IMG/VR virus record: IMGVR_UViG_3300050015_000096
Location: 1 to 32,971 of that record
Length of the DNA stretch: 32,971 nt
From: a virus
Direction: 5' to 3' (one strand)
Of the stretch, positions 4,829-32,197 are shown piece by piece; position 1 is the first letter of the stretch, and each line of letters starts with the position of its first letter. Made by a program: the position numbers and the translations under genes. A model generated the notes under the pieces. That model saw only the letters and a program-made list of their open reading frames with translations, had not been told where the DNA came from and did no database searches.

Positions 4829-5227
4829 ATGACCTTACAACAATTCATGGCCGCTGAAAACGGCAAAAAAGTAGACTGGGACGGCTGGTATGGAGCCCAA
4901 TGTGTCGACCTAGCCCAACTCTATAATCAGCAAGTAAACGGAGTCCCTGTTGGACTCACGGGGAATGCGTGTGACATTCAATTCACATATCCTAGAGCAT
5001 ACTATACCTTTATTGGTAACTTGCCTTGGAACGCCCCAAAGACGGGAGATATTGTCATTTGGAAGAAGTCAGCCACTTTACCTTATGGACATATCGCTAT
5101 CTGTATCAACGCAGGACACTGGTCTCTAACGACTTTTGACCAGAACTGGCCACTAGGCTCAGGCTGTCATGCACAAAATCATAACTATTTAAGCCCAGCA
5201 ATCGCTGGTTGGTTAAGGAGAAAATAA
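4829..5227 (+). CDS. CHAP-domain endolysin
   Basis: A 132-residue single-domain CHAP (NlpC/P60-like) peptidoglycan amidase or endopeptidase that degrades the host wall at lysis. Cys25 in GAQCVDLAQ is the nucleophile, His88 in YGHIAIC is the general base, and the polar residue after it is in FDQNW (Asp104/Asn106), all at the expected spacing. The PKTGDIVIW strand is also typical. No signal peptide and no wall-binding domain are present, so export depends on the neighbouring holin-like proteins. AAGGAGG lies 4-5 bases before the ATG, one of the strongest ribosome sites in the window. Confidence 0.9.
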   Translation: MTLQQFMAAENGKKVDWDGWYGAQCVDLAQLYNQQVNGVPVGLTGNACDIQFTYPRAYYTFIGNLPWNAPKTGDIVIWKKSATLPYGHIAICINAGHWSLTTFDQNWPLGSGCHAQNHNYLSPAIAGWLRRK

Positions 5228-5257
5228 TGGAAAAATGTAAACCGAGAAAGGGATAAT

Positions 5258-5398
5258 ATGAAAGTAATAAAATTCTTAGAAGGTAAAAAGACCTTCATCA
5301 TCGCCGCTCTTATGGTAGTCCTCGGACTATTGCAAGGTAACAACGATATGATTCTTCAAGGCTTAGGTCTTGTCGGACTTAGACTCGCTATCAAATAG
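5258..5398 (+). CDS. Small membrane protein of the lysis cassette
   Basis: 46 residues: a short basic N-terminus with the phrase FLEGKKTFIIAA, a hydrophobic helix (~14-25), then QGNNDMILQGLGLVGLRLAI. This pattern (GKKT-hydrophobic-GLxGLRxAI) is common in small phage and bacterial membrane proteins next to endolysins and is often labelled holin-like. It has an AAGGGATAAT ribosome site and is the last plus-strand gene before the terminator. A second holin or antiholin is the likely role, inferred from place and shape. Confidence 0.6.
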   Translation: MKVIKFLEGKKTFIIAALMVVLGLLQGNNDMILQGLGLVGLRLAIK

Positions 5399-5406
5399 CT
5401 GGCCAG

Positions 5407-5433
5407 GCCCGTAGGCTACCTCCTCCTGCGGGC
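5407..5433 (+). terminator. GC-rich hairpin after the lysis genes
   Basis: GCCCGTAGG pairs with CCTGCGGGC around a 9-base loop, starting 8 bases after the last lysis gene stop. The following TATTATATA is only weakly T-rich, so it probably acts together with the second hairpin. Confidence 0.5.
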
Positions 5434-5445
5434 TATTATATATTC

Positions 5446-5475
5446 AAAAGAGCCTCATTCGAGGCTCTCTTTTAT
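5446..5475. terminator. Bidirectional terminator between convergent operons
   Basis: AGAGCCTC and GAGGCTCT form a perfect 8-bp stem around ATTC, with TCTTTTATTT after it on the plus strand and an A-run before it that becomes a T-run on the minus strand. The stop codon of the minus-strand HNH gene lies within the stem, so one hairpin serves both transcription units. Confidence 0.8.
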
Positions 5476-5790
5476 TTCTTCATAATCTATTACTGCGGTT
5501 GAGTTTCTTAACTCATCTATCCTTGTTTTCCGCTCAGGAAATCTCTCGCTGAACCAATCAATGAACCAAATTGGGTCTTGATGAGCCGACTCAATTCCGA
5601 AAGTATGATGTAGAGGACATAAACAAATGCCGTTATTAGCATCCCAACGAAGATGACGGTTCCTACGCCCAACAACGTGGTGAACGTTAATATGAGTGGT
5701 ACCTCCACAAACTGTACAACAAAATCCATCTCTTTCCTTTACCCTTTCTCTCCAAAGTTTATCAAGTTTGTTGGTTTGTGATTTTGTCAC
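5455..5790 (-). CDS. HNH endonuclease
   Basis: 111 residues with a Cys-x2-Cys (CTVCG), then [19 protein letters not shown] and ICLCPLHH, i.e. the His-His, Asn and Cys/His residues of a zinc-stabilised beta-beta-alpha-metal HNH nuclease. Small HNH proteins of this type (including NinG-like ones) are found beside phage recombinases and cut recombination or packaging intermediates. Its start overlaps the end of recA by 29 bases, so the two are co-translated. A free-standing homing nuclease is the alternative, but the overlap with recA favours a recombination role. Confidence 0.85.
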
Positions 5791-6703
5791 GAAGTTCTTT
5801 CTCGACCTTTGGATTTTCTTTTATATACTCTATTGCTTTTAGTTTTCCCTGCATTTGCTTACCGCAGACATCTAACCACGAACCACGCTTCTCTACACCT
5901 AAGTCTACCAACTCTCCGTAGTAAGATATACCTTCTCCATATATGATATCGAACTCGGCTGTTCTAAAGGGTGGGGCGACTTTGTTTTTAACCACTTTGG
6001 CTTTAACTCTATTCCCAGTAACCCTATCACCCTCTTTTAGCTGTTCGCTTCTTCTTAGGTCTATCCTTATTGTAGAATAGAACTTGAGGGCTTGTCCACC
6101 GCTTGTGGTTTCTGGGTTACCAAAAAATACCCCTATCTTCATCCTTATCTGGTTTATAAACACGACAATGGTGTTAGAACGAGATATACCGCCAGACAAC
6201 TTCCTCATTGCTTGGCTCATTAACCGTGCCTGTAGACCGATATGGGAATCTCCCATCTCTCCATCTATCTCCGCCCGAGGGACAAGAGCAGATACAGAGT
6301 CAACAATAACCACATCCACCGCCCCTTCTTTAACAAATGTATCAACGATTTCAAGTGCTTCTTCTCCCGTGTTAGGTTGCGATATATATAATTTATCTAA
6401 ATTAACTCCGATGTTTTGGGCGTAATCTGGGTCAAGAGAATGCTCGGCATCAATAAACGCCGCTTCTCCGCCAAGTTTCTGTACTTCGGCAATTATGTGG
6501 TACGAGAGTGTAGTCTTTCCGCTCATCTCTGGGCCATAGATTTCAATAATCCGTCCACGAGGTAAGCCTCCACCTGTAGCGATATCAAGTCCGATAGAAC
6601 CAGTTGATACCCGCTCTATGCTAGAGTTTCCTGCGGTTAACTTTATGACCGCTTCCTTACCAAAGGCCTTCTCAATATGCTTCAATGCTTCTTCTATACC
6701 CAT
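5762..6703 (-). CDS. recA: RecA recombinase
   Basis: A 313-residue bacterial-type RecA that forms filaments on single-stranded DNA and drives strand exchange. Walker A is GPEMSGKT (57-64), the catalytic Glu is in IDAEH (~86), Walker B is VVIVD (~130-134). The [14 protein letters not shown] and [20 protein letters not shown] regions carry the allosteric and L2 DNA-binding loop. It is ~40 residues shorter than E. coli RecA, lacking most of the acidic C-terminal tail that restrains activity, so it may load more readily. It is followed by an overlapping HNH gene and preceded by a small gene overlapping by 10 bases. No polymerase or helicase is seen nearby. Confidence 0.96.
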
Positions 6704-6966
6704 TTTCCTCCTTTAACGAATTTAAGTAATTCTGGCTCTGTCCACGAATCTAGGGCTAAGCATAAATCGTGGTAATTATAGAAGGTTCCATCGTTATGGA
6801 CGTTATGGCCATAGGAAACCTTGATATAGATGCCCTGTTTGCTCTCTTTTCGTGCTCGACAAAGTGCCAATAATCGCTTTTTAGAGGATGGGTGGTAGGG
6901 TAGCTCCACTTTGCCATTTATTTTCAAAAACAGCGAGTAACCGTGCTCAGTTTTTTTACCTGCCAT
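6694..6966 (-). CDS. Hypothetical protein upstream of recA
   Basis: 90 residues when started at ATG 6966, preferred over an upstream ATG because AAGGAG lies 7 bases before it. The protein is basic in its first half ([32 protein letters not shown]) with beta-strand character, then aromatic ([16 protein letters not shown]). The end overlaps recA by 10 bases, suggesting coupled translation and possibly a helper role in recombination. No family was recognised. Confidence 0.65.
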
Positions 6967-7126
6967 ATCGGCACTCCTTACTACCATTTACTATGACATT
7001 AAACGGACAACTCCCCTTTTGCCTCCATTTTGGACACTTTCCATTTTCAAAGAATGTGATACAGCTTATCTCAGGCTTTAGACCACCAGTTGGGGTCGAG
7101 GGCGTCTTGGTAAATTCTTGGTTCAT
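6956..7126 (-). CDS. Small Cys-rich protein
   Basis: 56 residues with five cysteines (SC, GKCPKW, GSCPF, KECRYGR) spaced like a compact metal-binding or disulphide knot. It overlaps the upstream gene by 56 bases and the downstream start by 11 bases, in a different frame from both. The composition reads as real protein, but the ribosome site before ATG 7126 is weak, so it may depend on coupled translation. Function unknown. Confidence 0.45.
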   Translation of the reverse strand: MNQEFTKTPSTPTGGLKPEISCITFFENGKCPKWRQKGSCPFNVIVNGSKECRYGR

Positions 7127-18487: not shown

Positions 18488-18801
18488 TGGCAACTTGGAA
18501 ACAAAAACATTTAGTAAAAGCAATAGTAAAGAATAACGGTAATTTAAGGAAATCTATGAAAGAAGTAGGCTATTCAGATTCGGTATCTAAAAGGCCGAAG
18601 ACTATCACCGAGACCAAAGGGTTTAAGGAAGCCGCTGCAAAGCAGGGCTTAACTGAAGACTTGATAACGGAATCTCTGGTAGACGATATCATCGCTAAGC
18701 CAGCTAACCGAAAGGGTGAGTTGGAACTAGGGGCAAAGATACTTGGTCTCACCGACAAAAAAGAAGTGTCGGGCGATATCACTATCAAATGGGAGGAATA
18801 G
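18487..18801 (+). CDS. Terminase small subunit
   Basis: 104 residues. An N-terminal HTH-like region (HLVKAIVKNNGNLRKSMKEV then GYSDSVSKRPKTITETKGFK) matches small terminases that recognise packaging sites; the C-terminal half (DIIAKPANRKGELELGAKIL) is the usual helix pair followed by an acidic end that contacts the large subunit. Directly upstream of, and overlapping by one base, the large subunit gene, which confirms the call. Confidence 0.85.
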   Translation: MATWKQKHLVKAIVKNNGNLRKSMKEVGYSDSVSKRPKTITETKGFKEAAAKQGLTEDLITESLVDDIIAKPANRKGELELGAKILGLTDKKEVSGDITIKWEE

Positions 18802-20099
18802 TGGAAATAACGATTCCATACAAACCAACACCAATACAAAAAATCGTACATCAAGACAAAAACCAATACATCGTTTTAAACTGGGGGAGACAGTCTGGGA
18901 AGTCAACTTTTGTTATGAACGAAATGATTCGTGAAGCAATGGCTACTCCTAAGGGAAGATTCTGGATTGTCGCTCCCACCTATAAGCAAGCCAAAGCGAT
19001 TTACTGGAAAGACCACGTTAAACATTTTATACCGAAGCAACTAATCAAGAAGATGAATGAGACCGAACTCTCGGTTGAGTTTGTCAACGGTGCCACTATC
19101 GAATTTAAGGGAGCCGACAACGAAGACTCGCTTAGAGGTTCTCGCTTACACGGTGTGGCTTTAGATGAATACGCATTTATGAAACCCCACGTCTGGGATA
19201 CGATTATCTCGGCTATGTTGAATACAACCGACGGGAGGGTATTTTTTATTTCGACACCTAATGGGTTTGACCACTTCCACGAGATGTGTGTTAAGGCTCA
19301 GAAGTTAAGGGACTGGTCTTACTACCACTGTACCTCTTATGACAACCCATACTCTAGTCGGGCCTACATAGAATCAAAGAGACTGGACCTACCTGATGAT
19401 GTCTTTGCTCAAGAGTACCTAGCCGACTTTACCCGTAAGGCGGGACTCGTCTATAAGGAATTTGATAAGAAGCTAAACGTTGTTGATATGCTCCAGCCAG
19501 AATCGGCCTGGACTAAGTTCGTGGCAATCGACTTTGGTCAGATTAACCCCACCGCCGTTCTCTTTATCGGCGTTGACCACGAAGACAACCTATATATTTA
19601 TGATGAAATCTATGAAGCCAATTTGTTCACGAGTGAATTGGCTCATTTGATTAAGGTGAAAACTGGAGGGTTTTATATCACCACATTCTATGGAGACCAA
19701 GCGGCATCGCAGTCCATCAAAGATTTATCCGAGCATGGTATTTATGTGATGCCCGTCTCCAAGAAGCGAGGCACCACAACCGAGGACTACTTTAAGGGTG
19801 GCATTGAGAAGATTCGTGGCTACCTCAAGGTCCAAGAAGGTACAGGTAAGCCGAAACTATTTGTGGCAGGTAACTGCAAGAACACGATAGATGAGTTTGA
19901 GGCCTATTCGTGGAAAGAAGTTAAAGAAGGCGATATCAGAAACAAGCAGGAGCGTCCAGAGAAGTCTCATGACCACTGCATGGATGCTTTGAGGTACTTT
20001 ATATATGAACATAAAGAAGATAAGGGTCCAGTTGTTATCCCACCGATGACCTTACTAGGTGGAATTGAAGCTGAGGCCTATGTTTTGGGGGGAGAATGA
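18801..20099 (+). CDS. Terminase large subunit
   Basis: 432 residues from GTG 18801 (GGGAGG is 4 bases upstream; an ATG 12 bases earlier would overlap the ribosome site). The ATPase half has Walker A GRQSGKST (29-36) and Walker B VALDEY (119-124), with coupling motif FISTPNG (149-155). The RNase H-like nuclease half has Asp244 in AIDFGQ, Asp299 in YGDQA and Asp391/Asp395 in HDHCMDALRY. It packages the genome into proheads and cuts it. The overlap with the small subunit and the following HAD gene points to one operon. Confidence 0.95.
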   Translation: MEITIPYKPTPIQKIVHQDKNQYIVLNWGRQSGKSTFVMNEMIREAMATPKGRFWIVAPTYKQAKAIYWKDHVKHFIPKQLIKKMNETELSVEFVNGATIEFKGADNEDSLRGSRLHGVALDEYAFMKPHVWDTIISAMLNTTDGRVFFISTPNGFDHFHEMCVKAQKLRDWSYYHCTSYDNPYSSRAYIESKRLDLPDDVFAQEYLADFTRKAGLVYKEFDKKLNVVDMLQPESAWTKFVAIDFGQINPTAVLFIGVDHEDNLYIYDEIYEANLFTSELAHLIKVKTGGFYITTFYGDQAASQSIKDLSEHGIYVMPVSKKRGTTTEDYFKGGIEKIRGYLKVQEGTGKPKLFVAGNCKNTIDEFEAYSWKEVKEGDIRNKQERPEKSHDHCMDALRYFIYEHKEDKGPVVIPPMTLLGGIEAEAYVLGGE

Positions 20100-20395
20100 T
20101 TATTGCGGTTGATTTTGACGGGGTTGTAATGGACCCAAACAACGTTCCTGAGGGGTTTAGGATGGGAAATCCGAAGGAAGGGGCTAAGGATTCGTTGGAA
20201 AAGATGAGAAAAGACGGTCATACTATCGTGATTTTCTCTTATCGGGCCAAACACCCCAAACATATTGCCGAATGGATGGAGTTTTTTGAGATACCATATG
20301 ACGAAATAACAAATATTAAGGGTGATTTTGACCTAATTATTGACGATAAAGCGGTTAAATTCACCACATGGGAAGAAGTAAAGGGGGAACTATGA
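20096..20395 (+). CDS. Small HAD-type phosphatase
   Basis: 99 residues with HAD motif I DFDGVV (6-11), a motif II-like Ser in FSYRA, and motif IV DDKAVKF near the end. Compact HAD proteins of this type often sit in surface-sugar gene clusters and dephosphorylate a sugar- or nucleotide-phosphate. Its position just before a sugar-nucleotide dehydratase supports that. It overlaps the terminase end by 4 bases (ATGA). Confidence 0.75.
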   Translation: MIIAVDFDGVVMDPNNVPEGFRMGNPKEGAKDSLEKMRKDGHTIVIFSYRAKHPKHIAEWMEFFEIPYDEITNIKGDFDLIIDDKAVKFTTWEEVKGEL

Positions 20396-21132
20396 ACATA
20401 ATCATAACAGGTGGTGGCGGGAGTCTCGGTCAAACCTTTGCCAAAAAACTACACAAAGAACACAAAGTAACCCTAATTGACAACAACGAGTGGAGCCTGG
20501 CTCAGTGTCAACTCCCTGTTGAGAAACTCTTAATGGACTTTTCCGACTGGAAGTTTGACCGACATCCTTGTGATTTAGTAATTCATTGTGCCGCCTACAA
20601 ACACGTTAACCTAGGAGAAGAAAATGTCGAAAGTTTTATTGAAAACAACATCGGAAAAACAACCAGACTCTTTAGAGAGGCCTATAAGTATAATAGTGAT
20701 GTCCTTTTCATTTCCACTGATAAGGCGGTTGAGCCCATCTCGGTTTATGGAGTTACGAAGTTTATGGGGGAACGGTTATGCCGTACCTTTAATTTTGCCG
20801 TGGTTCGTCTTGGTAATATCCTTTCTTCCAATGGCTCGGTTATCCCGTTATGGGAAAAGCAAATCGAGAACAAAGAACCAATAACAATAACCGACGAACG
20901 GATGGTGCGGTATGTTATCGAAGACTATGATGCCGTCAACCAAATCTGGGATATATACATGAGTGGGAAGAAGTTGATTATTCCTAAGTGTAAAGAGATT
21001 AGATTACTAGACCTTCTAACCGAGGTTTTGGTAAAACACGGACTGACTATTTCCGACGTTAACGTAAACGTTATCGGAATGCGTCCAGGCGAAAAGTTAA
21101 GAGAAGTTTTAAAATGGGAGGACGAGGAATGA
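20392..21132 (+). CDS. UDP-sugar 4,6-dehydratase-like SDR (CapD/PglF/FlaA1 type)
   Basis: 246 residues from ATG 20392, right after AAGGGGGAAC; the longer frame upstream overlaps the HAD gene. GGGGSLG (7-13) binds NAD(P); STDKAV (108-113) and Tyr119-x3-Lys123 are the dehydratase active site. LGNILSSNGSVIPLW followed by ITITD..MVRY is the substrate signature of the polysaccharide-biosynthesis dehydratases that turn UDP-GlcNAc into a 4-keto-6-deoxy sugar. It is soluble and ~80 residues shorter than FlaA1-type enzymes. First step of a sugar pathway completed by neighbouring genes. Confidence 0.82.
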   Translation: MNIIITGGGGSLGQTFAKKLHKEHKVTLIDNNEWSLAQCQLPVEKLLMDFSDWKFDRHPCDLVIHCAAYKHVNLGEENVESFIENNIGKTTRLFREAYKYNSDVLFISTDKAVEPISVYGVTKFMGERLCRTFNFAVVRLGNILSSNGSVIPLWEKQIENKEPITITDERMVRYVIEDYDAVNQIWDIYMSGKKLIIPKCKEIRLLDLLTEVLVKHGLTISDVNVNVIGMRPGEKLREVLKWEDEE

Positions 21133-21133
21133 G

Positions 21134-21361
21134 ATGAGGGGATACTTAAAGGAATATGTTTTGATAAAAAAGGCAAAACATTGGTGGCAAGATAACGAAT
21201 ACAAATTAAAACTAACGCCAATTATAATTATTGGAGTTACGGACAGAATCAAGGGAGAAACATATAAGTATGTAGAGGGTAAAAATTATGTAATCCAAAA
21301 TGGAAAAGAAATAATAGAAATTCCAGATATTGAAGGGAATATAGTTCGGGAGGAGAAATGA
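21134..21361 (+). CDS. Hypothetical protein between sugar genes
   Basis: 75 residues, basic first half (LKEYVLIKKAKHWWQD), beta-rich middle (TPIIIIGVTDR; KYVEGKNYVIQNGKEIIEIP). No motif recognised. The stop overlaps the next ATG by 4 bases, so it is co-translated with the epimerase. Confidence 0.6.
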   Translation: MRGYLKEYVLIKKAKHWWQDNEYKLKLTPIIIIGVTDRIKGETYKYVEGKNYVIQNGKEIIEIPDIEGNIVREEK

Positions 21362-22275
21362 AAATACTAATCACAGGCGATAAGGGTTTTGTCGGGACCG
21401 AGACGAGGAAGTTATTAGAGAGCCTTGAAAGTGACGTTGCGGGTAAATTATTTGGTCTTGGAACCGCTGTCCCCTTCAAAACTAAAGACCACGAAGTCAT
21501 CGGCTACGACCTAATGGACGGTTATGACATCAGAGACTATGACCAGTTTAGAGCTTTCTGTATTAACAAAAGGCCAGATAGGGTTCTACATCTTGGAGCT
21601 ATTGCTAGATTTGCTGACGCCGACAAGAATCCTAAACTCTGTTATGAAACCAACGTAGAGGGAACTAAAAACGTGGTAGATGTTTGTAAAGAACTTCACA
21701 TCCCTCTGGTCTATTCATCTACGGGTTCAGTATATATGCCGATTAAAGAAGAACCACCAATTACTGAGGAATTTCAAGCTTGCGGAAACTCGGTCTATGG
21801 TTGTAGTAAATATTTAGGAGAAACATATGTTAAAGAGCATAATCCCTTCATTATATTGCGTTACGCTCACCTCTACGGCAAAGAAAAAAGGATGCACGGG
21901 CTCATTGGAGGTTACTATGACCGAATTAAAAGGGGTATGGCCCCTACTCTTTATGGTGGTAAGCAGAGTAACGATTTTACGTACATTAAAGATGTGGCTA
22001 AGGCTAATCTGTTGGCACTTACGGCACCGTGGGATAAGTGGAATCAAGTATATAACGTGGGTACAGGCGAAGAGTTAACCGCCGAAGATGCAGGTAAAAT
22101 CATTTGTGAACTTACTGGTTGGAAGGGTGGAGTAGAAAAGAAAACTCAACGAGAAGTAGACCCAGGAAGATTTGTCTACGATATGACCAAGAGCGAAACG
22201 ATGCTCGGTTTTAAAGCTGATTATGATTTTGAATCAGGGTTAAGGGATATGTTTGATGAATCCACGAATTCATAA
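21358..22275 (+). CDS. NAD-dependent sugar epimerase/dehydratase (extended SDR)
   Basis: 305 residues. TGDKGFVG (6-13) is the Rossmann glycine motif, HLGA (78-81) and SSTGSVY (120-126) line the active site, and YGCSK (147-151) holds the catalytic Tyr147 and Lys151. C-terminal TYIKDVAKANLLAL and YNVGTGEELT are typical of GalE/RmlB-like enzymes. A UDP- or dTDP-sugar is the expected substrate; the exact reaction cannot be read. An odd insertion (~ESDVAGKLFGLGTAVPF) follows the first helix. Confidence 0.82.
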   Translation: MKILITGDKGFVGTETRKLLESLESDVAGKLFGLGTAVPFKTKDHEVIGYDLMDGYDIRDYDQFRAFCINKRPDRVLHLGAIARFADADKNPKLCYETNVEGTKNVVDVCKELHIPLVYSSTGSVYMPIKEEPPITEEFQACGNSVYGCSKYLGETYVKEHNPFIILRYAHLYGKEKRMHGLIGGYYDRIKRGMAPTLYGGKQSNDFTYIKDVAKANLLALTAPWDKWNQVYNVGTGEELTAEDAGKIICELTGWKGGVEKKTQREVDPGRFVYDMTKSETMLGFKADYDFESGLRDMFDESTNS

Positions 22276-22597
22276 TTATTGTTTCATCGGCGATAAAGTC
22301 GAGATAGGGAAGGGGTCTAAAGTTCAAGCCTTCGCCTTCATCCCGAATGGAGTCACGATAGAGGAAGATGTCTTTATCGGGCCTCATGTGTGTTTCTGTA
22401 ACGACCGCTACCCGAATGCCAAAGAGTTCGGCGAGTATAAAGAAACTCTAGTAAAAAAAGGAGCCAGTATCGGGGCGAACTCGACCATCTTACCAGGAAT
22501 TACTATCGGAGAAGATGCAGTTATCGGGGCTGGTTCTGTTGTAACTAAAGATATTAAAAAGGGGGGGAAATGGATTGGGACATCTATCGTCCAGTAG
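22256..22597 (+). CDS. Left-handed beta-helix sugar N-acetyltransferase
   Basis: 113 residues made of hexapeptide repeats (I-G-x-x repeats: FIGDKVEIGKGSKVQAFAFI; GASIGANSTILPGITIGEDA; VIGAGSVVTKDI), forming a trimeric beta-helix that binds acetyl-CoA between subunits. The insertion CFCNDRYPNA and the pattern of coils match WlbB/WbpD-type UDP-amino-sugar N-acetyltransferases. It would acetylate the amino group added by the aminotransferase. It overlaps the epimerase by 20 bases and the next gene by 28. Confidence 0.82.
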   Translation: MNPRIHNYCFIGDKVEIGKGSKVQAFAFIPNGVTIEEDVFIGPHVCFCNDRYPNAKEFGEYKETLVKKGASIGANSTILPGITIGEDAVIGAGSVVTKDIKKGGKWIGTSIVQ

Positions 22598-22779
22598 AAG
22601 ACTTTGAGAAAGCTATCGCTGAATACGAACAAGAAGATGTAGTCTTTGGACTTTTAGAAAAAAGGCAACGATGGATAGAAAAACACGGCACTACGGATGG
22701 ATTTTGGGAGCAGTTTATGCCGAAAAAACTAATGCTCAGTGCATACTGTGTTAACAAATACGATACGGAGTGGAAATGA
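22570..22779 (+). CDS. Hypothetical protein with an aminotransferase-like N-terminus
   Basis: 69 residues after AAAAGGGGGGG. The first ~20 residues (DWDIYRPVEDFEKAIAEYE) match the N-terminal motif with which short DegT-type phage aminotransferases begin, and the same motif appears again inside the next gene (YEVVEQFELAIAKYT). The rest (KRQRWIEKHGTTDGFWEQFM...) is unrelated to that enzyme. It may be a chimera left by insertion of the nuclease domain. Overlaps the following gene by 4 bases. Confidence 0.55.
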   Translation: MDWDIYRPVEDFEKAIAEYEQEDVVFGLLEKRQRWIEKHGTTDGFWEQFMPKKLMLSAYCVNKYDTEWK

Positions 22780-23813
22780 AACCAAAAATATGTCCGATGT
22801 GTGAAAAAGAATTTACCCCATCAAGTGGAAGTCATATTTATTGTGGGAGCGAAAGAAAAAAGACGGGGTGTTCCTACAAGAGGAGCTTTCTTAGAATGGC
22901 AGAACACAAAGAAAGGGCGAAGTTAAACCCAGAAGAATATAAAAGAAAATCAAGAGACCATTATATTTACAGCACATACAGGATGAGACTTAAAGATAAA
23001 GAAAGAATGGTCTCCTATCAGAGTAACAAATGTCTGATATGTGGAGATGAATTTGAAACTATGGGAGATGCTCATATTGACCACTGTCATAAGAGTGGCG
23101 AAATAAGGGGGGCCTTATGTGGCAAATGTAACCGTGGTATCGGTATGTTCGGAGATGATGTCTCAAAACTGAAGGCAGCAATAAACTATCTTGGGAGCGA
23201 TGATAACCCCTATGAGGTGGTAGAGCAGTTTGAACTAGCGATAGCAAAATATACAGGAGCTCCGTTCGCTATAGCGGTCAACTCCGCAACGAATGCTCTC
23301 CTACTTGCTTGTGCCTATAACAAAGTGAAAGAAGTAACTATTCCTAAACATACATACACAAGTGTTCCTATGTCAATCATCCATGCAGGGGGGACGGTTA
23401 AGTTTGGAGGACAGGAAAGGTGGCAAGAGATTGGAATGTATGGACTATTTCCATATCCGATTATTGATTCTGCAAGACACCTAACAAGTGATATGTATCG
23501 GAATTGGCATAGAGACGAGTTTGTCTGTATCTCTCTCCATTGGGGGAAAACCCTGAACTTAGGTCAAGGTGGCGTTATCCTACACTCCGACCCCGAAGCT
23601 CAAGAGTGGTTCAAGAAAGCTCGCTTCGATGGCAGAACACCTGGAGTTCACCCAAAAGACGATACTCCTATCTTAGGTTGGCACTGTTATATGAGTCCGA
23701 GAGACGCAGCAGACGCTCTAACTAGATTACATTTCCTGCCGAAACACAACGACCCTTTACCGATAGAACCAAACTACCCTGATTTAAGCAAGTTGGATAT
23801 ATGGAAAAAATAG
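22776..23813 (+). CDS. Endonuclease VII-type HNH domain fused to a DegT-type aminotransferase
   Basis: 345 residues from ATG 22776 (GGAG five bases upstream). Residues 1-40 hold a first Cys cluster (CPMC, YC, GC). Residues ~80-140 are a recombination endonuclease VII-like domain: CLICG (86-90), IDHCH (101-105), IRGALCGKCNRGIG (110-123). Residues 145-345 are a PLP aminotransferase of the DegT/DnrJ/EryC1/StrS family: VEQFELAIAKYTGAPFAIAV, Asp231 (IIDSARH) for the pyridine nitrogen and the Schiff-base Lys258 in HWGKTLNLGQGG. The aminotransferase part is short (~200 versus ~370 residues) and ends DYPDLSK-like, as in other compact phage versions. No stop or frameshift separates the domains. Confidence 0.85.
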   Translation: MKPKICPMCEKEFTPSSGSHIYCGSERKKTGCSYKRSFLRMAEHKERAKLNPEEYKRKSRDHYIYSTYRMRLKDKERMVSYQSNKCLICGDEFETMGDAHIDHCHKSGEIRGALCGKCNRGIGMFGDDVSKLKAAINYLGSDDNPYEVVEQFELAIAKYTGAPFAIAVNSATNALLLACAYNKVKEVTIPKHTYTSVPMSIIHAGGTVKFGGQERWQEIGMYGLFPYPIIDSARHLTSDMYRNWHRDEFVCISLHWGKTLNLGQGGVILHSDPEAQEWFKKARFDGRTPGVHPKDDTPILGWHCYMSPRDAADALTRLHFLPKHNDPLPIEPNYPDLSKLDIWKK

Positions 23814-24124
23814 AAGACGACATCGGTTATTGGTCAAAATACTATCATATTCCAGGATATGAGGCAGAAGACCTGGCTCAGGAACTAAGAATACAGCTAC
23901 TCTTAAAGGAACCTAAGTTCAATCCAGAGAAATCGGCCTATCGGACGTGGGCAAACTACGTTATGAAGAATAAAATGATAGATTTGCTCCGAAAACACAA
24001 GAATGAGATAGGTTTGATGGTAGAATTGAGAGTTTCTGACAACCCAACGCCAGGTTTTGATGAATTATTTGAGATTTTAGACGACTTACCTGACAAAACT
24101 ATCAATATTTGGGACTATCTGTAA
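23801..24124 (+). CDS. Mini sigma-factor-like protein (region 2 only)
   Basis: 107 residues. GYEAEDLAQELRIQLLL (19-35), FNPEKSAYRTWANYVMKNKM (40-59) and IDLLRKHK (60-67) reproduce sigma-70 region 2: the DLxQE core-binding helix and the aromatic tWa..vmkN..iD..R segment that melts the -10 element. The rest is an acidic tail, with no region 4 HTH. This is the minimal architecture of phage late sigmas such as T4 gp55-type proteins that recognise only a -10-like box. It starts inside the end of the aminotransferase gene and directly precedes the portal, whose upstream box matches a recurring motif. Confidence 0.7.
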   Translation: MEKIEDDIGYWSKYYHIPGYEAEDLAQELRIQLLLKEPKFNPEKSAYRTWANYVMKNKMIDLLRKHKNEIGLMVELRVSDNPTPGFDELFEILDDLPDKTINIWDYL

Positions 24125-24130
24125 GATTTT

Positions 24131-24140
24131 GCGTATAAAC
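24131..24140 (+). promoter_or_regulatory. GCGTATAAAC motif before the portal gene
   Basis: The box lies in the 35-base gap between the sigma-like gene and the portal start, 29 bases before ATG 24160, followed by CTTATAGAAGGG. It matches boxes before 18335 and 26085, and is the reference copy for this motif. Confidence 0.55.
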
Positions 24141-24159
24141 CTTATAGAAGGGAATGAAA

Positions 24160-26058
24160 ATGGCGCAAAAAAAAGACAATGTAGTAAAATATCGTGATGA
24201 ATTTAACAAATGGTTACCAATTCTACAACCATACCACCTACGTTTTAACTCAAACTATGAAAAATACACCGCTAATCAACGGTTATCGGGTCAAAAGACT
24301 AAAATAAACGACCCAGTAGCTTCAGAATTAGTAGAAAGAGTTATTCAGAAACTCTTTGAAAGAGAACCTAAGTTCTTTGCCGAGGCTCGTGGTAAAAATA
24401 TACCCCCAGAAGTTAAGAGTATACTAACGGCTGTAGCTGGGCACCTTTGGTCTAACCAGGATATGGTCCAATCTACTGGAGCAATGAGAAATAAGCTCAA
24501 AGTTCTAGGAAGAGAGTTCTGTGTTACTGGTAATGGAGCTACCGAAGTTTATTGGAACCCACAATCAGACTGTCCAGACATGAGGGTTATACCGATTGAG
24601 GACATCGTCTTTGACCCAACTAAGAACCTAAAAACATCCCCTATATTATATGTAAGACAATTTGTTTCCCTTGATTATTTAAAAGATAACGTCGAAATAA
24701 AGAAGGACGGCAATGTTGTTACTGGTATCTTCGACGCTAAAGGCGTAAAGAAACTAGAGGCCTGGGCAAAGGGTGAAGAAAACCTTAAGAAAGACGACCC
24801 AACCCCTCAAAGAATAAACCGTTCTGGTGGAGCCTTCCAACGCAAGGTTGACCGATTCCAACTAATCTCTCGATATAAAAGAGATGAGGTTTGTCGGTTT
24901 ATCATTGATGACGACCTAGAAGACCCAGTACTTATTCAGGAATTTACGAATGACGTCTATGACACACCGCCCGTACAGGTGGCTATGGACATGGAAGTTG
25001 TTAAAGAACCATATTCACGTTCCTTTATTGACGACCTAAAGGGTCTCTTTACCCTTAAGAATCTATTCTTAAATCAACTTTCGGACTACGGTTCTAAAGT
25101 GTTAAACCCCCCGACGATTGTTAACCCAAATGTTGGTCCAGTTAATCTAAAGACCGTCGCCAATATGTACAAGTTTGGTGGAATTGTTGTTGCTGACCCG
25201 CAGATGATTGACCAAAAACCAATCGCCCCTATCGGTAACTTCCCCCACGACATGTTGTCTTGGATTGAGCAACGCAGTGAATCTGTCTCTGGTATCGGAG
25301 CCTACTTGGCTGGTGTGCCAAATCAAACCTCAGACCAAACTCAAGGCACTAAAGGCGGTATACAGTCTTTAATTCAACAGGCGGTATCCCCTGTCCGTGA
25401 CCGACAACTTAATATTGAAGAATCAATTATCGAACCTTGGATTAACAAGGCCGTTAAGATGGTTGGCGCCACTATGGGCAAAGACGAATTTAAATGGGTT
25501 CTTGTTTCAGGCGAAGACCGCAAGTGGGTTAAGGTTACTAAAGGTCTTATCGAAGGCAAGATTCGTTTAGATGACCTTATGCAGGCTGGCGCAGTCCAAG
25601 ACGAAGAATTACAAGAGATTGTTAACCTTATGTTGCAGTCTGGTAAAGACCCGCAGAAGGATATTATCTTTGACGTTGACTGGTTAATAAAGGTAGAGGC
25701 TGGTTCTCTTGCAGAAGTAGACCCTGCCGATTCAGTCCCTAAGATTCAAATGTGGGCAGACTTTAGAATGAGTCACTATGTTCCAACAGACTACAAGAAA
25801 GTATCTGACGAAATGGCCCTAAGGCTTGGTATTAAGAACCCGTCACAGTTTGACGAACCAGGACAACAACCACAACAGATGAGATTCCCTCGTGAAGTTA
25901 TGAACTATAAAGACCTTCCACCACAAGGACAGGAACAGATGGCCCAACAGGCTGGTATCCAGATTCAACCGCCTCAACCGCCGCAACAGACACAACCTCA
26001 ACCGCCAATGCCACCAACCCCACCTGTACCACAACAGGGTCAAACTCCAACACAATAA
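24160..26058 (+). CDS. Portal protein
   Basis: 632 residues from ATG 24160, preferred over ATG 24154 because AAGGG would touch the earlier codon. It forms the dodecameric ring through which DNA enters and leaves the head. The body has typical portal features: an N-terminal helical clip (NKWLPILQPYHLRFNSNYEK), a beta-rich wing with DPTKNLKTSPILYVRQFVSL, the long stem helix region around LKNLFLNQLSDYGSKVLNPP, and a Ser-rich GIGAYLAGVPNQTSDQTQGT crown loop. The C-terminal ~50 residues are Pro/Gln-rich (QPPQPPQQTQPQPPM), a flexible tail probably inside the capsid. Placed between terminase and scaffold as expected, though separated from the terminase by the sugar cassette. Confidence 0.85.
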   Translation: MAQKKDNVVKYRDEFNKWLPILQPYHLRFNSNYEKYTANQRLSGQKTKINDPVASELVERVIQKLFEREPKFFAEARGKNIPPEVKSILTAVAGHLWSNQDMVQSTGAMRNKLKVLGREFCVTGNGATEVYWNPQSDCPDMRVIPIEDIVFDPTKNLKTSPILYVRQFVSLDYLKDNVEIKKDGNVVTGIFDAKGVKKLEAWAKGEENLKKDDPTPQRINRSGGAFQRKVDRFQLISRYKRDEVCRFIIDDDLEDPVLIQEFTNDVYDTPPVQVAMDMEVVKEPYSRSFIDDLKGLFTLKNLFLNQLSDYGSKVLNPPTIVNPNVGPVNLKTVANMYKFGGIVVADPQMIDQKPIAPIGNFPHDMLSWIEQRSESVSGIGAYLAGVPNQTSDQTQGTKGGIQSLIQQAVSPVRDRQLNIEESIIEPWINKAVKMVGATMGKDEFKWVLVSGEDRKWVKVTKGLIEGKIRLDDLMQAGAVQDEELQEIVNLMLQSGKDPQKDIIFDVDWLIKVEAGSLAEVDPADSVPKIQMWADFRMSHYVPTDYKKVSDEMALRLGIKNPSQFDEPGQQPQQMRFPREVMNYKDLPPQGQEQMAQQAGIQIQPPQPPQQTQPQPPMPPTPPVPQQGQTPTQ

Positions 26059-27326: not shown

Positions 27327-28313
27327 ATGGCATATACAATTACCACTAACACTGGTACAGTAACCGCCGTTCCTAAGTTTTACGACAAAACTTGGTTAGA
27401 GAGATTATTTCCTCAACTCGTTATGCTTGACTATTGTATCAAAAAACCAATAGACAGCAACATGGGTACTACTATCTACTTCCCAAGAATGCAGAATACA
27501 ACTGGCTTCACCGCCGCTTCTGCTTATGCGTTAACTCAGGGTACAATTGTCACTCCACAAGCGGTATCCGACCAACAGGTTTCTGCAAATATCGAGCAAT
27601 ACGGTAATGCACGAGCTATCTGGGATATCACGCAAATGGCTGCAATTTCTACCTTCGTTACCGAAGCCGTCAAGGAACAAGCTGACTTTGCTGCTAAATT
27701 AGTCGACCTAAGAATCATTGAGGAATCCCTTGGCACATCCTCACACGCTTCAGGCGACGCAGGCGCAGGCTTCCCAGTTATCGTCTTCAACACCAACTCT
27801 GCTGTTGAAGAAGCTGGCGCAGTCTCAGGCCGTATCTTAGCTGCAGGCAGTGAGCACAGATTAACGGGTAAAACAATCCGACGTGGCGTAAGTCAATTAC
27901 GTTCATTAAACGTTCGTCCTTACGACGATGGTTTATACGCTTTGGTTGTTAGCTCAATCAGTGCTTATCGGTTAATGGCTGATAGTGAATGGCAAGCTGC
28001 ATACGAATACACAGACCCAGAGAACATGAGAAAAGGCGTCGTTGGCTCAATCTTCGGTGCTAAAGTTATCATTGATAACAACATCTTCTCCTCGGCTTGT
28101 GGTTCAAATGGCGCAACCGTTTACTACTCCTTGTTACTTGGGCAGGGCGCTCTTGGCGCTACAGAACTTGGTGGCGGATATGAAACATATTCAACCGCTG
28201 GTGCTGATAGTTACAACCCGCTAGCTCAATTCACAACCTTTGGTTGGAAATGGCAGTTCGTAGCTAAGAGACTTAATGTCTCCTGCGGTACCGTCATCGT
28301 AACAGCTGACTAG
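27327..28313 (+). CDS. Major capsid protein
   Basis: 328 residues, like the N4 gp56/P22-type coat proteins with HK97 fold. Typical N-terminal segment (DYCIKKPIDSNMGTTIYFPR: 'P.p...G.ti.fpr'), a T-rich loop (ALTQGTIVTPQAVSDQQVSA), the long spine helix (ISTFVTEAVKEQADFAAKLV), and an A-domain-like region (YDDGLYALVVSSISAYRLMA; SIFGAKVIIDNNIF). No proteolytic leader is apparent. It follows the scaffold and is followed by a hairpin, as is common for the most abundantly expressed phage gene. Confidence 0.85.
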   Translation: MAYTITTNTGTVTAVPKFYDKTWLERLFPQLVMLDYCIKKPIDSNMGTTIYFPRMQNTTGFTAASAYALTQGTIVTPQAVSDQQVSANIEQYGNARAIWDITQMAAISTFVTEAVKEQADFAAKLVDLRIIEESLGTSSHASGDAGAGFPVIVFNTNSAVEEAGAVSGRILAAGSEHRLTGKTIRRGVSQLRSLNVRPYDDGLYALVVSSISAYRLMADSEWQAAYEYTDPENMRKGVVGSIFGAKVIIDNNIFSSACGSNGATVYYSLLLGQGALGATELGGGYETYSTAGADSYNPLAQFTTFGWKWQFVAKRLNVSCGTVIVTAD

Positions 28314-28574: not shown

Positions 28575-30161
28575 GTGAATCCATTTTCAGAAGATGAGAA
28601 GAAATTCTCTCTAATTGCTCCCTGTTATGGGATAACTTATCAGCATCTACCGCAATGGGTAGAAGCTCTATCAAAACAAGAATATAAAAACTTTGAGGCT
28701 ATCGTGGTTTTCGATGGCCCGCACCGAAAGGGTCGTAATCTACTCGATAAACTCATCAAGGAGTATAAGGACCTAGATATCGCCTACTATACCATCCCGC
28801 ACGGGGGCGCCTGTGCTGCTCGTAATCATGGAGCAAAGATGGCTAAAGGTGATTTTTTGGCTTTTCCGTCACCCGACATCTATCTATATCCCTCATGCTT
28901 AAGGATATGGGCTAACGCCTTTGACGAACATCCAGAATGCAACCGTGTTTGGGGTCTATATGACCTAATAAGAGAAGACGGGTCCATTTCAAGCCCTATT
29001 GGGAACGCTCCCACCTTTCCAGACGGAACGGTCTGGTATGAGGGGTTTAAGTTCTCTCCGTTCGCCGATGGTACCTTCCCTTGTCGAGCTAACGACTTTA
29101 TTGGCTGGGACGAGGACTGTTACTCACTAAATGACTGGGAGTTCTCGGTTAGGATGCTTAAGAGAGATAACTTTAAGGGTAAGGACTGGCAATATATTCC
29201 AATATCCTTCTTTAAGGCCGAAATGCCTAAGGCTGGTGGTCTATCCGACGACTCTCACAAGAACTGGGTTGAACGTAAGGAATATATCCAAAAACATAAC
29301 GGAATTGAACCTAAACCAATCTGTGTTTCCTCACTAGGGGCACCGACTCACGGTTACAATGTCTCTAAAATACTTGATGCTGAGTTCCTGTCTCGACCGA
29401 TGTTTAAGGACAATAACTATAAAATAATCTACCTCTTGGGTTTCTATACAGGACAAGACTCCTATACGGCTCAATCACACATGGAAGTCCTTCAAGGCTT
29501 CAAGGGCAAGAAGATTATTCACTGGATTGGCTCTGATATCATGCAATTACACTGGAATTGCTCTTTTGAGAAGCTAAAAGCTCTTAAGAAGTGGTTTAAG
29601 GACGAGAAGGTCATCCACCTATGTGAGGCAGACTTTACTCAGAAAGAACTCGCCGAAGTCGGGATTAAGGCCAAAATAGTCCCAATTCCTCCAGATAAAC
29701 TCTATAAACCGCTACCACTACCAGAAGAGTTTGCGGTTGCTATCTATAGCCCTAACTCAGAACTCTATAACAATGATTTAATGTACGAAATCGTTCGGTC
29801 TATGCCCGACGTAAAGTTCTACTTCTTTGGCGATGCCGAGAAGAAGGGACAAAAGGGTGACAACTGGGAACAGTTAGGTTGGATTGACCTAGATGAATGG
29901 ATGCCCAAGTTCTCCTGTAACCTACGGGTTATGGGTCACGACGGTCTTCCTCTAACGCCGATTAAGTTCATCACGGCTGGCAGACACGTCGTCATGAACA
30001 AACCGCTGTTTGGAGCGATAGAATGTACAAACAGTCGACCCGACATCGTAAAAGCCGTTAGAAAGGCTCAGGAGAGCCCGTTTTTAGCCAAAAATGCCAA
30101 ATATTGGCAAAAAGAGATGGATTTTGCTAAATATAACGAAACGATTAGGGGGCTAAAATGA
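28575..30161 (+). CDS. Two-domain glycosyltransferase (GT2-like plus GT-B-like)
   Basis: 528 residues starting at GTG 28575 (AAGGAGGAACA upstream). Residues ~9-230 are a GT-A/GT2-like domain: FSLIAPCYGITYQHLPQWVE, VVFDGP (44-49), ACAARNHGAKMAKGDFLAFP, with PSPDIYL where the DxD region usually lies and DWEFSVRML as the catalytic-base region. Residues ~270-528 look like a GT-B transferase or its C-terminal half (IHWIGSDIMQLHW; HLCEADFTQKELAE; TAGRHVVMNKP). Such fusions attach more than one sugar or work on a repeating chain. Downstream of the capsid, so virion glycosylation is plausible. Confidence 0.75.
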   Translation: MNPFSEDEKKFSLIAPCYGITYQHLPQWVEALSKQEYKNFEAIVVFDGPHRKGRNLLDKLIKEYKDLDIAYYTIPHGGACAARNHGAKMAKGDFLAFPSPDIYLYPSCLRIWANAFDEHPECNRVWGLYDLIREDGSISSPIGNAPTFPDGTVWYEGFKFSPFADGTFPCRANDFIGWDEDCYSLNDWEFSVRMLKRDNFKGKDWQYIPISFFKAEMPKAGGLSDDSHKNWVERKEYIQKHNGIEPKPICVSSLGAPTHGYNVSKILDAEFLSRPMFKDNNYKIIYLLGFYTGQDSYTAQSHMEVLQGFKGKKIIHWIGSDIMQLHWNCSFEKLKALKKWFKDEKVIHLCEADFTQKELAEVGIKAKIVPIPPDKLYKPLPLPEEFAVAIYSPNSELYNNDLMYEIVRSMPDVKFYFFGDAEKKGQKGDNWEQLGWIDLDEWMPKFSCNLRVMGHDGLPLTPIKFITAGRHVVMNKPLFGAIECTNSRPDIVKAVRKAQESPFLAKNAKYWQKEMDFAKYNETIRGLK

Positions 30162-30835
30162 AGAAGTTTAGTTTTATCATGCCGACCTTAAATCAGGAGA
30201 CCTATATTGCAGAAGCGATTCAGTCGGTCCTTGGTCAGACCTATAAGAAGTGGGAACTGATTATCATAAATGACGGATGCACCGACGCTACCGACAAGGT
30301 GGTTAATTACTACGTCAACAAGTACCCAGACAAGATTAAGTACCTAAGTAACGAGAAGAACCTAGGTATGGGGTTAACTCGTAATAAAGGTATCGCCGCC
30401 TCCGATGGCGACTACATCGTCGTTATTGACTCAGATGACTATTCCCATCCAGAGAGGCTTAAGAAAGCTCTCCCTTATCTAAAGAAGTATGACTTCATCT
30501 ATACTGACTACGTGAACTGCGACACCGCACTACGGGCCGAGAGTATGTACTCTGCTCCAAGCGTTATAAACCTTGAGAATATTGCGATGAATGCCTCTGT
30601 GCCTCACGGTACGGTTATTGCCAATCGTAAATGCTTCGTTGAGAATCCTTATGATGACCTTAGGGTGAATGAAGACGGTTATATGTGGTTACACTGGTTT
30701 AAAGCGGGATACACCTATAAACATATTACCTTCCCCAGTATCTTAGTTAGGGAGCATCCTAAAAGATGTTCAAACACTGAGTTAAAAGAAGTCAAAGAAA
30801 TCACCAAAAGACTAAAGAAAGATATCAATGTATGA
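30158..30835 (+). CDS. Family 2 glycosyltransferase
   Basis: 225 residues. FSFIMPTLNQETYIAEAIQS is the classic GT2 start, IIINDGCTDAT (36-46) binds the nucleotide, DSDD (91-94) is the DxD metal site, and NEDGYMWLHW holds the catalytic base region. No membrane segment, so it acts in the cytoplasm. Overlaps both neighbours by 4-8 bases, so it is co-translated with the large transferase and the methyltransferase. Confidence 0.85.
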   Translation: MKKFSFIMPTLNQETYIAEAIQSVLGQTYKKWELIIINDGCTDATDKVVNYYVNKYPDKIKYLSNEKNLGMGLTRNKGIAASDGDYIVVIDSDDYSHPERLKKALPYLKKYDFIYTDYVNCDTALRAESMYSAPSVINLENIAMNASVPHGTVIANRKCFVENPYDDLRVNEDGYMWLHWFKAGYTYKHITFPSILVREHPKRCSNTELKEVKEITKRLKKDINV

Positions 30836-31307
30836 CTATAGGGCAAAGTGGGAAAACTCCACGTGGGGTTCTTCTTATGCCGATGAATGGCCTTCTCTTA
30901 TAAAGTCACAGTTAATTCCAGGAACGATACTTGACTTAGGCTGTGGGACGGGAAGATTCAGCGGTATCTTCGACTCAAAAGGATATCTTGGCGCAGACTT
31001 CCCAAAGGCCGTAGAAAGTGCTAGGTGTGAACACCCTAAACACAAATATAAAGTCTTAGACATTATTACCGACAAAATACCTAAGGCTGACAATATCTTC
31101 TGCTGGACAGTATTAGAACATATCCCCGTTGAGGAGATTGACCAGGTAATGGATAAAATACTAAAGGCTGGTAAAAACGTTATTTGTACTGAACCAGACG
31201 GTTTTACAAACGAGATTACCAGTTATTGCCACTGTCACGATTACGCTAAGTACGGTTTGAAGGTGGTTCACGACTTTGGTAACGTCAAGATGTGGAGGAA
31301 TATATGA
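30828..31307 (+). CDS. SAM-dependent methyltransferase
   Basis: 159 residues with motif I ILDLGCGTGRF (34-44) that binds S-adenosylmethionine, a motif II-like Asp in LGADF, and FCWTVLEHIP as motif IV. A compact class I enzyme; placed among glycosyltransferases, its target is likely a sugar hydroxyl or amino group. End overlaps the epimerase start (ATGA). Confidence 0.8.
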   Translation: MYDYRAKWENSTWGSSYADEWPSLIKSQLIPGTILDLGCGTGRFSGIFDSKGYLGADFPKAVESARCEHPKHKYKVLDIITDKIPKADNIFCWTVLEHIPVEEIDQVMDKILKAGKNVICTEPDGFTNEITSYCHCHDYAKYGLKVVHDFGNVKMWRNI

Positions 31308-32197
31308 TTGCTTTAATTGCTGGAAACAGACCACAATATATCAAAGCTGAAATTATACTTAAAAAGTTGAAATGTACTTATATTGATACGGGACAACATT
31401 ATGGGAATATGGCGAGTCCTTTTATTAAGACTAAACCAAACTATTCTTTAAAAGTGGACAATAGTCGACTTATCTCTTTAATGTCTCCCTTATATGACCT
31501 TCTGTCAGAATTACGACCCCAGCTAGTAGTGGTAATTGGCGATACCAATACCACCCTAGCTGGAGCATTAGTCGCCAATGAACTACATATACCCATTGCT
31601 CATATCGAGTCGGGGCTCCGTTCCTATGAAGATATGCCTGAAGAGAGTAACCGAGTAATGGTCGACCATATTTCCAAGTATCACTTCTGTCCCACAAAGT
31701 CGGCGATAGAAAATCTCGCCAAGGAGGGAATTTATAGCGAGGTCTATGCTTCTGGTGACGTTATGGCTGAAGTTATTAGCGGTACTTGGGAACCAGAAGA
31801 TTATATACTAGCAACGATTCACCGTCAAGCGAATGTTGACAAAAAAGATAAATTAGAGAACGTTTTGAATACTATAAAGACCCTATACCCAGGAGAACAC
31901 ATTGTCTGGCCAATGCATCCCAGAACCGCTAAGATGATAAAAGAATTTGGCTTAGATACGGGCGAGATAGACGTGATTGAACCTGTTAATTTCGAAGAGA
32001 TGATTGAACTGGAAAGACACGCCAAAAGCATTGTAACCGACTCTGGGGGAGTAATGAGGGAAGCCTACTTATTGGGTGTCCCTTTTATTGTTCTTAGAAA
32101 CAACACCGAGTGGGAAGAATTAAAGTCTGGAGAACGTGGTCTATTGGGAAGCGACGCATCGGATAGGATTAAGAATATATTGGAGGATTATGAATAA
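31304..32197 (+). CDS. UDP-GlcNAc 2-epimerase-like protein (WecB type)
   Basis: 297 residues from ATG 31304, five bases after GGAGG; a GTG 12 bases earlier overlaps that site. Motifs of the family: GNRPQYIK (7-14), VVIGDTNTTL (77-85), AHIESGLRS (99-107), MPEESNRVMVDH (111-122), TIHR (171-174), MHPRT, DSGGVMREAYLLGVP (246-260), and NTEWEE near the end. It interconverts UDP-GlcNAc and UDP-ManNAc. It is ~75 residues shorter than E. coli WecB, with the losses in loops, and the catalytic residues are all kept. Confidence 0.85.
   Translation: MIALIAGNRPQYIKAEIILKKLKCTYIDTGQHYGNMASPFIKTKPNYSLKVDNSRLISLMSPLYDLLSELRPQLVVVIGDTNTTLAGALVANELHIPIAHIESGLRSYEDMPEESNRVMVDHISKYHFCPTKSAIENLAKEGIYSEVYASGDVMAEVISGTWEPEDYILATIHRQANVDKKDKLENVLNTIKTLYPGEHIVWPMHPRTAKMIKEFGLDTGEIDVIEPVNFEEMIELERHAKSIVTDSGGVMREAYLLGVPFIVLRNNTEWEELKSGERGLLGSDASDRIKNILEDYE

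Follow-up and report, generated by a model that had tools for sequence, protein, structure and literature searches.

Background

Endonuclease VII (EndoVII) of phage T4 is a Holliday-junction resolvase of 157 aa, and in the Pgl/Pse systems a dehydratase, an aminotransferase and an acetyltransferase form the set expected for a 4-acetamido-4,6-dideoxy sugar. The free-standing nucleases of T4 (seg/mob) show the behaviour of mobile genes, and their ORFs share 1-24 nt with those next to them (PMC2988022). Mobile nuclease ORFs in fungal mitochondria bring along a C-terminal host-gene end of foreign origin, leave the native end behind, and are sometimes in phase with the gene; this is described for atp6, atp9, cox2, and nad3 in Glomus and for atp6 in Allomyces, and in Glomus atp6 the two ends share 63.5% nucleotide identity (PMC3630166).

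Here, we describe a locus at which an EndoVII-type nuclease and a small sugar aminotransferase are read as one protein. It is situated in one IMG/VR virus record (IMGVR_UViG_3300050015_000096, positions 1 to 32,971), the whole stretch of 32,971 bases being called the window in the following.

Results

Genome context

The window derives from a tailed phage and encodes, besides a UvsX/RecA-like recombinase and an endolysin, the following proteins outside the fused gene and the ORF preceding it:

18789-20099, terminase large subunit
20368-21132, + strand, PseB-like nucleotide-sugar 4,6-dehydratase (PF02719, E 1.5e-54; TIGR03589, E 1.6e-36, under the equivalog cut-off)
21358-22275, + strand, NAD-dependent nucleotide-sugar epimerase/dehydratase (PF01370, E 1.8e-36)
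22253-22597, + strand, hexapeptide (left-handed beta helix) sugar N-acetyltransferase, NeuD/PglD-like (PF00132, E 2.2e-21; TIGR03570; PDB 7s3u, E 2e-33)
24154-26058, portal-like protein (PHROG "head-tail adaptor", a weak match)
27327-28313, major head protein
28575-30835, glycosyltransferase-like proteins

The sugar cluster is situated between the terminase and portal genes. Its PseB-like dehydratase is the expected maker of the keto sugar consumed by the aminotransferase, and a further stretch, at 31292-32197, presumably resembles UDP-GlcNAc 2-epimerases according to our own reading of the sequence. Besides the fused enzyme, no second DegT match exists anywhere in the record.

Two smaller proteins adjoin these genes. 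Between the terminase and the sugar genes, a protein of 99 aa is encoded (20096-20395), the PHROG match of which is annotated as phosphoheptose isomerase and the start of which, DFDGVV, looks like that of a HAD-type phosphatase. Immediately 3' of the fused gene, a small protein with a sigma-70 region 2 follows (23801-24124; PF04542, E 6.3e-12), the start of its gene overlapping the end of the fused gene by 13 nt.

The fused frame and its nuclease half

The locus itself consists of the following parts:

22570-22779, + strand, ORF of 69 aa, residues 6-19 of which (22585-22626) are very likely a diverged aminotransferase 5' end
22776-23204, + strand, Endonuclease VII-type HNH nuclease, complete (PF02945; phrog_2914; alignment)
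23193-23219, + strand, fusion junction GGGAGCGATGATAACCCCTATGAGGTG (alignment with the starts of relatives)
23205-23813, + strand, mini DegT/PseC-like sugar aminotransferase (PF01041; relatives; model; fold search)

The fused frame extends without a stop from the ATG at 22776 to 23813 and codes for 345 aa; an alternative GTG start at 22770, given by the ORF tool, adds two residues. Pfam domains of both kinds are found in this one protein, namely Endonuclease_7 (residues 64-139, E 1.8e-19) and DegT_DnrJ_EryC1 (best stretch 146-210, E 5.6e-15), and the PHROG matches are to endonuclease VII (phrog_2914, E 2.7e-32) and to an aminotransferase (E 1.4e-4). The 345-residue protein described in a first-pass annotation of this DNA is thus confirmed, as are the HNH motifs it listed.

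The nuclease half comprises an N-terminal CxxC finger, the motifs CLICG, IDHCH, and LCGKCN, and a natural tail (...INYLGSDD); C86/C89, D102-H103-x-H105, and C115/C118-N119 are invariant across an alignment of six EndoVII sequences, and the PF02945 score is 69.8 bits (curated cut-off 23.6). By these features, the half is a predicted intact HNH domain of the Endonuclease VII type; in the structure model it is of low confidence, with few homologues in the alignment. Its ATG overlaps the upstream TGA (ATGA), with GGAG just 5' of the start, and the CN motif is followed by a tail of 25 aa and then by the 200 residues of the enzyme.

The nuclease ORF lies outside any intron or intein. A self-splicing intron was rejected, since Rfam gave no match at E <= 1 in 21000-25000 and since the enzyme start is complete 3' of the nuclease, such that nothing needs splicing.

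The aminotransferase half

The enzyme half is complete from codon 2 of its free-standing relatives (NPYEVVEQFELAIAKYTG...) and begins with NPYEVVEQFE. In viral contigs, these relatives are around 195-220 aa long and begin with M(N)PYxVVExFE or similar, and identity to free-standing proteins of 200 aa amounts to 73% (L002) and 71% (L003 and L013; L numbers denote viral loci). The PF01041 score is 55.9 bits against a cut-off of 19.8. The PLP residues D231, S253, and K258 (numbering of the fused protein) are identical in 33 of 33 aligned relatives; the first-pass annotation had named the lysine and the aspartate with the right numbers, and neither the fused enzyme nor any of these relatives lacks the catalytic lysine. 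Structure modelling, which had been proposed as a check, predicts a DegT-like fold with pLDDT > 95 across most of the domain, and the model matches DegT structures at Z 18-20 with around 210 residues aligned.

The standard DegT length of 360-390 aa is not reached, the enzyme measuring 200 aa as in the free-standing viral relatives; as this length is common to them, the enzyme is not truncated by the fusion. Coverage of the PF01041 profile extends over positions 23-90 and 164-238 of 360, positions 239-360 being absent, which corresponds to a shortened middle and a missing C-terminal part. The arginine position of the family's NxRM motif is occupied by tyrosine in all 33 relatives, and the score with the PseC equivalog TIGR03588 stays below its cut-off (33.4 vs 423.5 bits). 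On these sequence characters, we file the enzyme as a shortened viral branch of the DegT fold and not as a standard member.

Divergence from L002, L003, and L013 is mostly synonymous (pN 0.19-0.20, pS 0.74-0.88), most of which may predate the fusion and is therefore weak evidence on the enzyme's present state. The earlier view that the sugar enzyme stayed in frame agrees with our results: it is read in frame with the nuclease and looks functional from its sequence, and it probably still catalyses the step between the PseB-like dehydratase and the acetyltransferase in a 4-amino-sugar pathway.

Mini DegT aminotransferases of around 200 aa are common in viral contigs (window 23205-23813; L002-L005, L013-L091). 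An alignment search yielded at least 593 aminotransferase candidates there, mostly of lower identity, whereas the patterns used retrieved no relative of the enzyme from prokaryote genomes. In the literature searched, which was covered in part, no report of mini DegT enzymes in phages was found. The finding draws attention to a DegT aminotransferase of very small size, widespread in viruses and little described. In L060, two different mini aminotransferases (4977-5612 and 6373-7008) are separated by a glycosyltransferase-like gene. In L054 (4569-5588), a GNAT acetyltransferase domain is fused in frame ahead of the mini aminotransferase, which indicates that the latter tolerates an N-terminal partner.

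The junction

Neither half has lost anything, the fusion being end to end, and the junction is situated at the exact end of the EndoVII gene and the exact start of the aminotransferase gene: the free-standing enzymes of 200 aa in L002-L005 and L013-L091 begin precisely where the fused half begins. The first-pass annotation had supposed that a nuclease module inserted at the N-terminus of the aminotransferase gene. This holds insofar as an HNH gene lies directly before the enzyme, but not as regards an insertion into it, which is not needed, since the enzyme is complete and the junction coincides with its normal start codon.

The starts of relatives read ATGAAYCCN (L003, L004, L014, L064, L070, L085), whereas the window reads ATGATAACCCC; in codons, ATG-AAY-CCN stands against ATG-ATA-ACC-CC, such that the window has a net surplus of 2 nt right after ATGA. 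The presumed former start ATG at 23200 (GCGATGATAACCCCTATGAG) lies in the +1 frame of the nuclease, is out of frame with the enzyme, and reaches a TAG after seven codons, so that the enzyme can be made only through the fusion or from an internal GTG in a poor position (23217).

Overlapping stops and starts are found elsewhere for this type of nuclease: of the 60 EndoVII ORFs for which a neighbour was detectable, 18 extend 4-14 nt into the start of the following gene. In phages phiM6 and Zappy, EndoVII and a DNA polymerase gene overlap by 8 nt, the polymerase ATG being read in +1 relative to the nuclease frame; both proteins (...ITYLKKNNE and ...ITYLEKYNV, each followed by the stop) end around five residues after the YL of the last helix, where ...INYLGSDD of the window continues. 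Without the two extra bases, the nuclease frame of the window would read GAT GAA CCC CTA TGA and stop, the enzyme would start with ATG AAC CCC TAT, and the unfused arrangement of two overlapping genes would read ATGAACCCC at 23200. We infer that the fusion arose by a net change of +2 nt where a stop and a start overlapped; it would then be one small mutational step away from the ordinary arrangement.

By the same alignment, a sequence error of 2 nt would equally create the appearance of a fusion. Two overlapping genes with a spurious insertion of 2 nt at the junction would fit with the small distance from the ordinary arrangement, with the presence of the fusion on a single contig, and with the unfused state of all related EndoVII ORFs (71 of 71); however, the junction is no homopolymer (GCGATGATAACCCC), which speaks mildly against an error, and the neighbouring genes of the window read as intact long frames. 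Altogether, we consider an assembly or sequencing artefact unlikely.

The upstream open reading frame

The start of the 69-aa ORF is overlapped by the 3' end of the acetyltransferase gene. As a whole, the ORF has no match in phages, viral contigs, or Pfam, and its C-terminal part (residues 20-69) has no recognised relative, the fetched loci included. Its stretch YRPVEDFEKAIAEY (22585-22626) was scored with a profile of 14 columns built from 74 aminotransferase N-termini and reaches 25.5 bits, compared to 26.0 bits for the enzyme's own start and 12.1 bits for the next best site in the window. Among around 870,000 background positions in other loci, only a second aminotransferase (L060, 26.1 bits) and the C-terminus of an epimerase (L014, 19.5 bits) exceed 17.1 bits. 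According to these scores, the motif very likely derives from an aminotransferase 5' end, the match comprising only 14 residues, and the leading motif that the first-pass annotation saw in both frames is indeed shared.

The upstream copy is identical to the enzyme's own start at 25 of 42 nt (60%) and 9 of 14 aa, and to the starts of L002 and L013 at 32 of 42 nt and 11 of 14 aa. Being closer to the enzymes of other phages, it appears as an older or foreign copy and is, judged by its DNA, the remnant of a different aminotransferase lineage and no fresh duplicate; a fresh duplication of the enzyme start was rejected because of the divergence (25/42 nt). The earlier proposal that an inserting nuclease left a copy of the start behind is not supported by these values. 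A nuclease that inserted into the aminotransferase start and duplicated it in doing so would account for a start on either side of the nuclease, but 17 of the 42 nt, for the most part at synonymous positions, are not shared between the copies, and the one on the upstream side is nearer to the genes of other phages, which makes this origin very improbable.

The remnant may be that of a resident gene that was displaced, or of a tandem copy, and a second copy is plausible given the two mini aminotransferases close together in L060. If the stretch is a remnant, a nuclease-free allele is expected to begin with MDWDIYRPVEDFEKAIAEYTG. A search for phages in which the upstream motif runs directly into the aminotransferase had been suggested: viral contigs contain no exact match to DNA of the VEDFEKAIAEYxxG type, although in L002 FEKAIAEYAG continues into an aminotransferase.

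At the overlap with the 69-aa ORF, the acetyltransferase ends with WIGTSIVQ (22561-22600) and not with the usual G-N-P-A-R; a small mutation or the overlap itself may be the reason why the normal end is missing. The upstream motif could accordingly be read as a frame-shifted C-terminal tail of the acetyltransferase, or else as an epimerase-like tail similar by chance, the fusion being unaffected in either case. The relatives have WVGNPARxx where the acetyltransferase of the window stops, RPV follows in the other frame of the window, and the epimerase tail of L014 reaches 19.5 bits in the profile comparison, all of which would agree with such a tail. On the other hand, 14 acetyltransferase tails from other loci end within around 20 residues and none has a DFEKAIAEY-like helix, for which reason the acetyltransferase tail was rejected; moreover, the motif scores as high in the profile as the start of the enzyme itself (25.5 against 26.0 bits), and identity to the aminotransferase starts of L002 and L013 reaches the 32 of 42 nt mentioned. 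We therefore doubt this explanation and prefer to regard MDWDIYRPVEDFEKAIAEY as an aminotransferase-start remnant.

Occurrence of the fusion

The EndoVII-aminotransferase fusion is unique in the sets searched and exists on one contig only. Aminotransferase relatives in > 80 viral loci include none with a fused nuclease; they lack a nuclease altogether, and their gene surroundings are in no case similar enough to those of the window for an allele. No nuclease-free allele of the exact locus was found among viral contigs. Among 71 related EndoVII frames in viral contigs, drawn from 80 viral loci plus three earlier ones, none is fused and all stop 21-48 residues past the CN motif. In phages, no record covers 80% of the fusion and seven match the enzyme, none of them fused; in 50 whole records carrying the aminotransferase, no EndoVII was found. 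Long N-terminal extensions in L036, L058, L061, and L062 were rejected as fusions, as they look like chance open frames in G+C-rich DNA. No report of an EndoVII-aminotransferase fusion was found in the part of the literature covered by our search.

The first-pass annotation had considered that the domains might always be separate in relatives, with an assembly error here. The former is the case in all sets searched, whereas the latter is, as set out above, not what we expect.

A bifunctional protein under selection, in which the nuclease domain would, for instance, tether or regulate the sugar enzyme, is conceivable insofar as the catalytic residues are kept in both halves, which presumably retain their activities, and as the GNAT fusion in L054 speaks for tolerance of an N-terminal partner. 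However, the fusion was found once, a GNAT partner suits a sugar pathway whereas EndoVII does not, and the EndoVII relatives are unfused and situated beside many unrelated genes. We give this explanation hardly any credit.

Discussion

Origin of the arrangement

Among phages, HNH genes of the EndoVII type are widespread, 770 records having a match, and in phage Bas93 an EndoVII is situated inside a split DNA polymerase gene, which is consistent with the behaviour of a mobile element. The position of EndoVII inside or before polymerase genes, together with the behaviour of the free-standing nucleases of T4, leads us to interpret the fused frame as a nuclease gene of the mobile type joined to an aminotransferase. 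We hold it to be reasonably probable that a mobile-type HNH gene beside an aminotransferase gene, a scar of recombination or homing, and a later fusion of the frames within a 4-amino-sugar cluster account for the locus. A mobile-type (homing-like) EndoVII HNH gene would have been situated immediately 5' of the gene for a mini DegT aminotransferase, with a nuclease stop that overlapped the ATG of the enzyme as is common for EndoVII genes. The net change of +2 nt after ATGA (from ATGA-AYCC to ATGATAACCCC) would then have joined the nuclease frame to the enzyme and, at the same time, have put the enzyme's own ATG out of frame, such that the enzyme would now be made as the C-terminal half of the 345-aa protein or, weakly, from the internal GTG at 23217. 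Recombination, possibly aided by DNA cleavage by the nuclease, would have brought in the nuclease-aminotransferase segment and displaced another aminotransferase copy or allele, of which the upstream start would remain. Against this reading stands the absence of EndoVII from the 50 records carrying the aminotransferase; recurrence thus lends no support to a gene-specific nuclease.

Less probably, the EndoVII gene and the aminotransferase 5' end constitute one mobile unit carrying a differently spelled copy of its target's start. The aminotransferase would have been cut near codon 15 and restored with the start carried along, the native start remaining as a stub, and the unit would correspond, in a bacteriophage and at the 5' end, to the fungal mitochondrial elements with their foreign gene ends. 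We see in this a minor possibility.

The fusion is probably genuine but accidental, or a small sequencing error, and not a new machine. If it is real, a mobile-type nuclease gene has been caught becoming part of its neighbour, which would show one way in which unrelated domains are added to phage proteins.

Comparison with known systems

The aminotransferase half shares its fold and the PLP residues Asp, Ser, and Lys with PseC/DegT aminotransferases (PDB 2fni, 3dr7, 5u21), but differs from these enzymes of 360-390 aa by its length of around 200 aa and by the tyrosine at the NxRM arginine position. The nuclease half matches T4 endonuclease VII (PDB 1e7l, 1en7) in the catalytic HNH and zinc motifs (E 1.6e-5); the match is restricted to the catalytic segment, whereas the N-terminal zinc finger and the tail of the window's nuclease are different.

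With the EndoVII genes next to or inside the DNA polymerase genes of phiM6, Zappy, and Bas93, the window has the domain and a similar length in common, but it differs from them in the neighbouring gene and in the fusion of the frames. Equally to T4 seg/mob (PMC2988022), an intron-free HNH ORF is situated between phage genes, with an overlap suggestive of translational coupling; unlike mob/seg, which stay separate ORFs, the nuclease of the window is of the EndoVII type and is fused to the downstream gene, and its cleavage and homing are putative.

Concerning the fungal mitochondrial mobile ORFs (PMC3630166), the window shares with them two diverged copies of a host-gene end that flank a nuclease (25/42 nt = 60%, 9/14 aa). 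The fungal ORFs carry a C-terminal end and a LAGLIDADG or GIY-YIG nuclease, and their expression was tested, whereas the window has a 5' end of 14 codons and an EndoVII and is known from its sequence. The window would be a 5'-end mirror image of the fungal elements, which 14 codons in one genome cannot establish. If the nuclease carries the start of its target gene, phages and fungal mitochondria would share a way in which selfish genes insert into coding sequence without killing the host gene.
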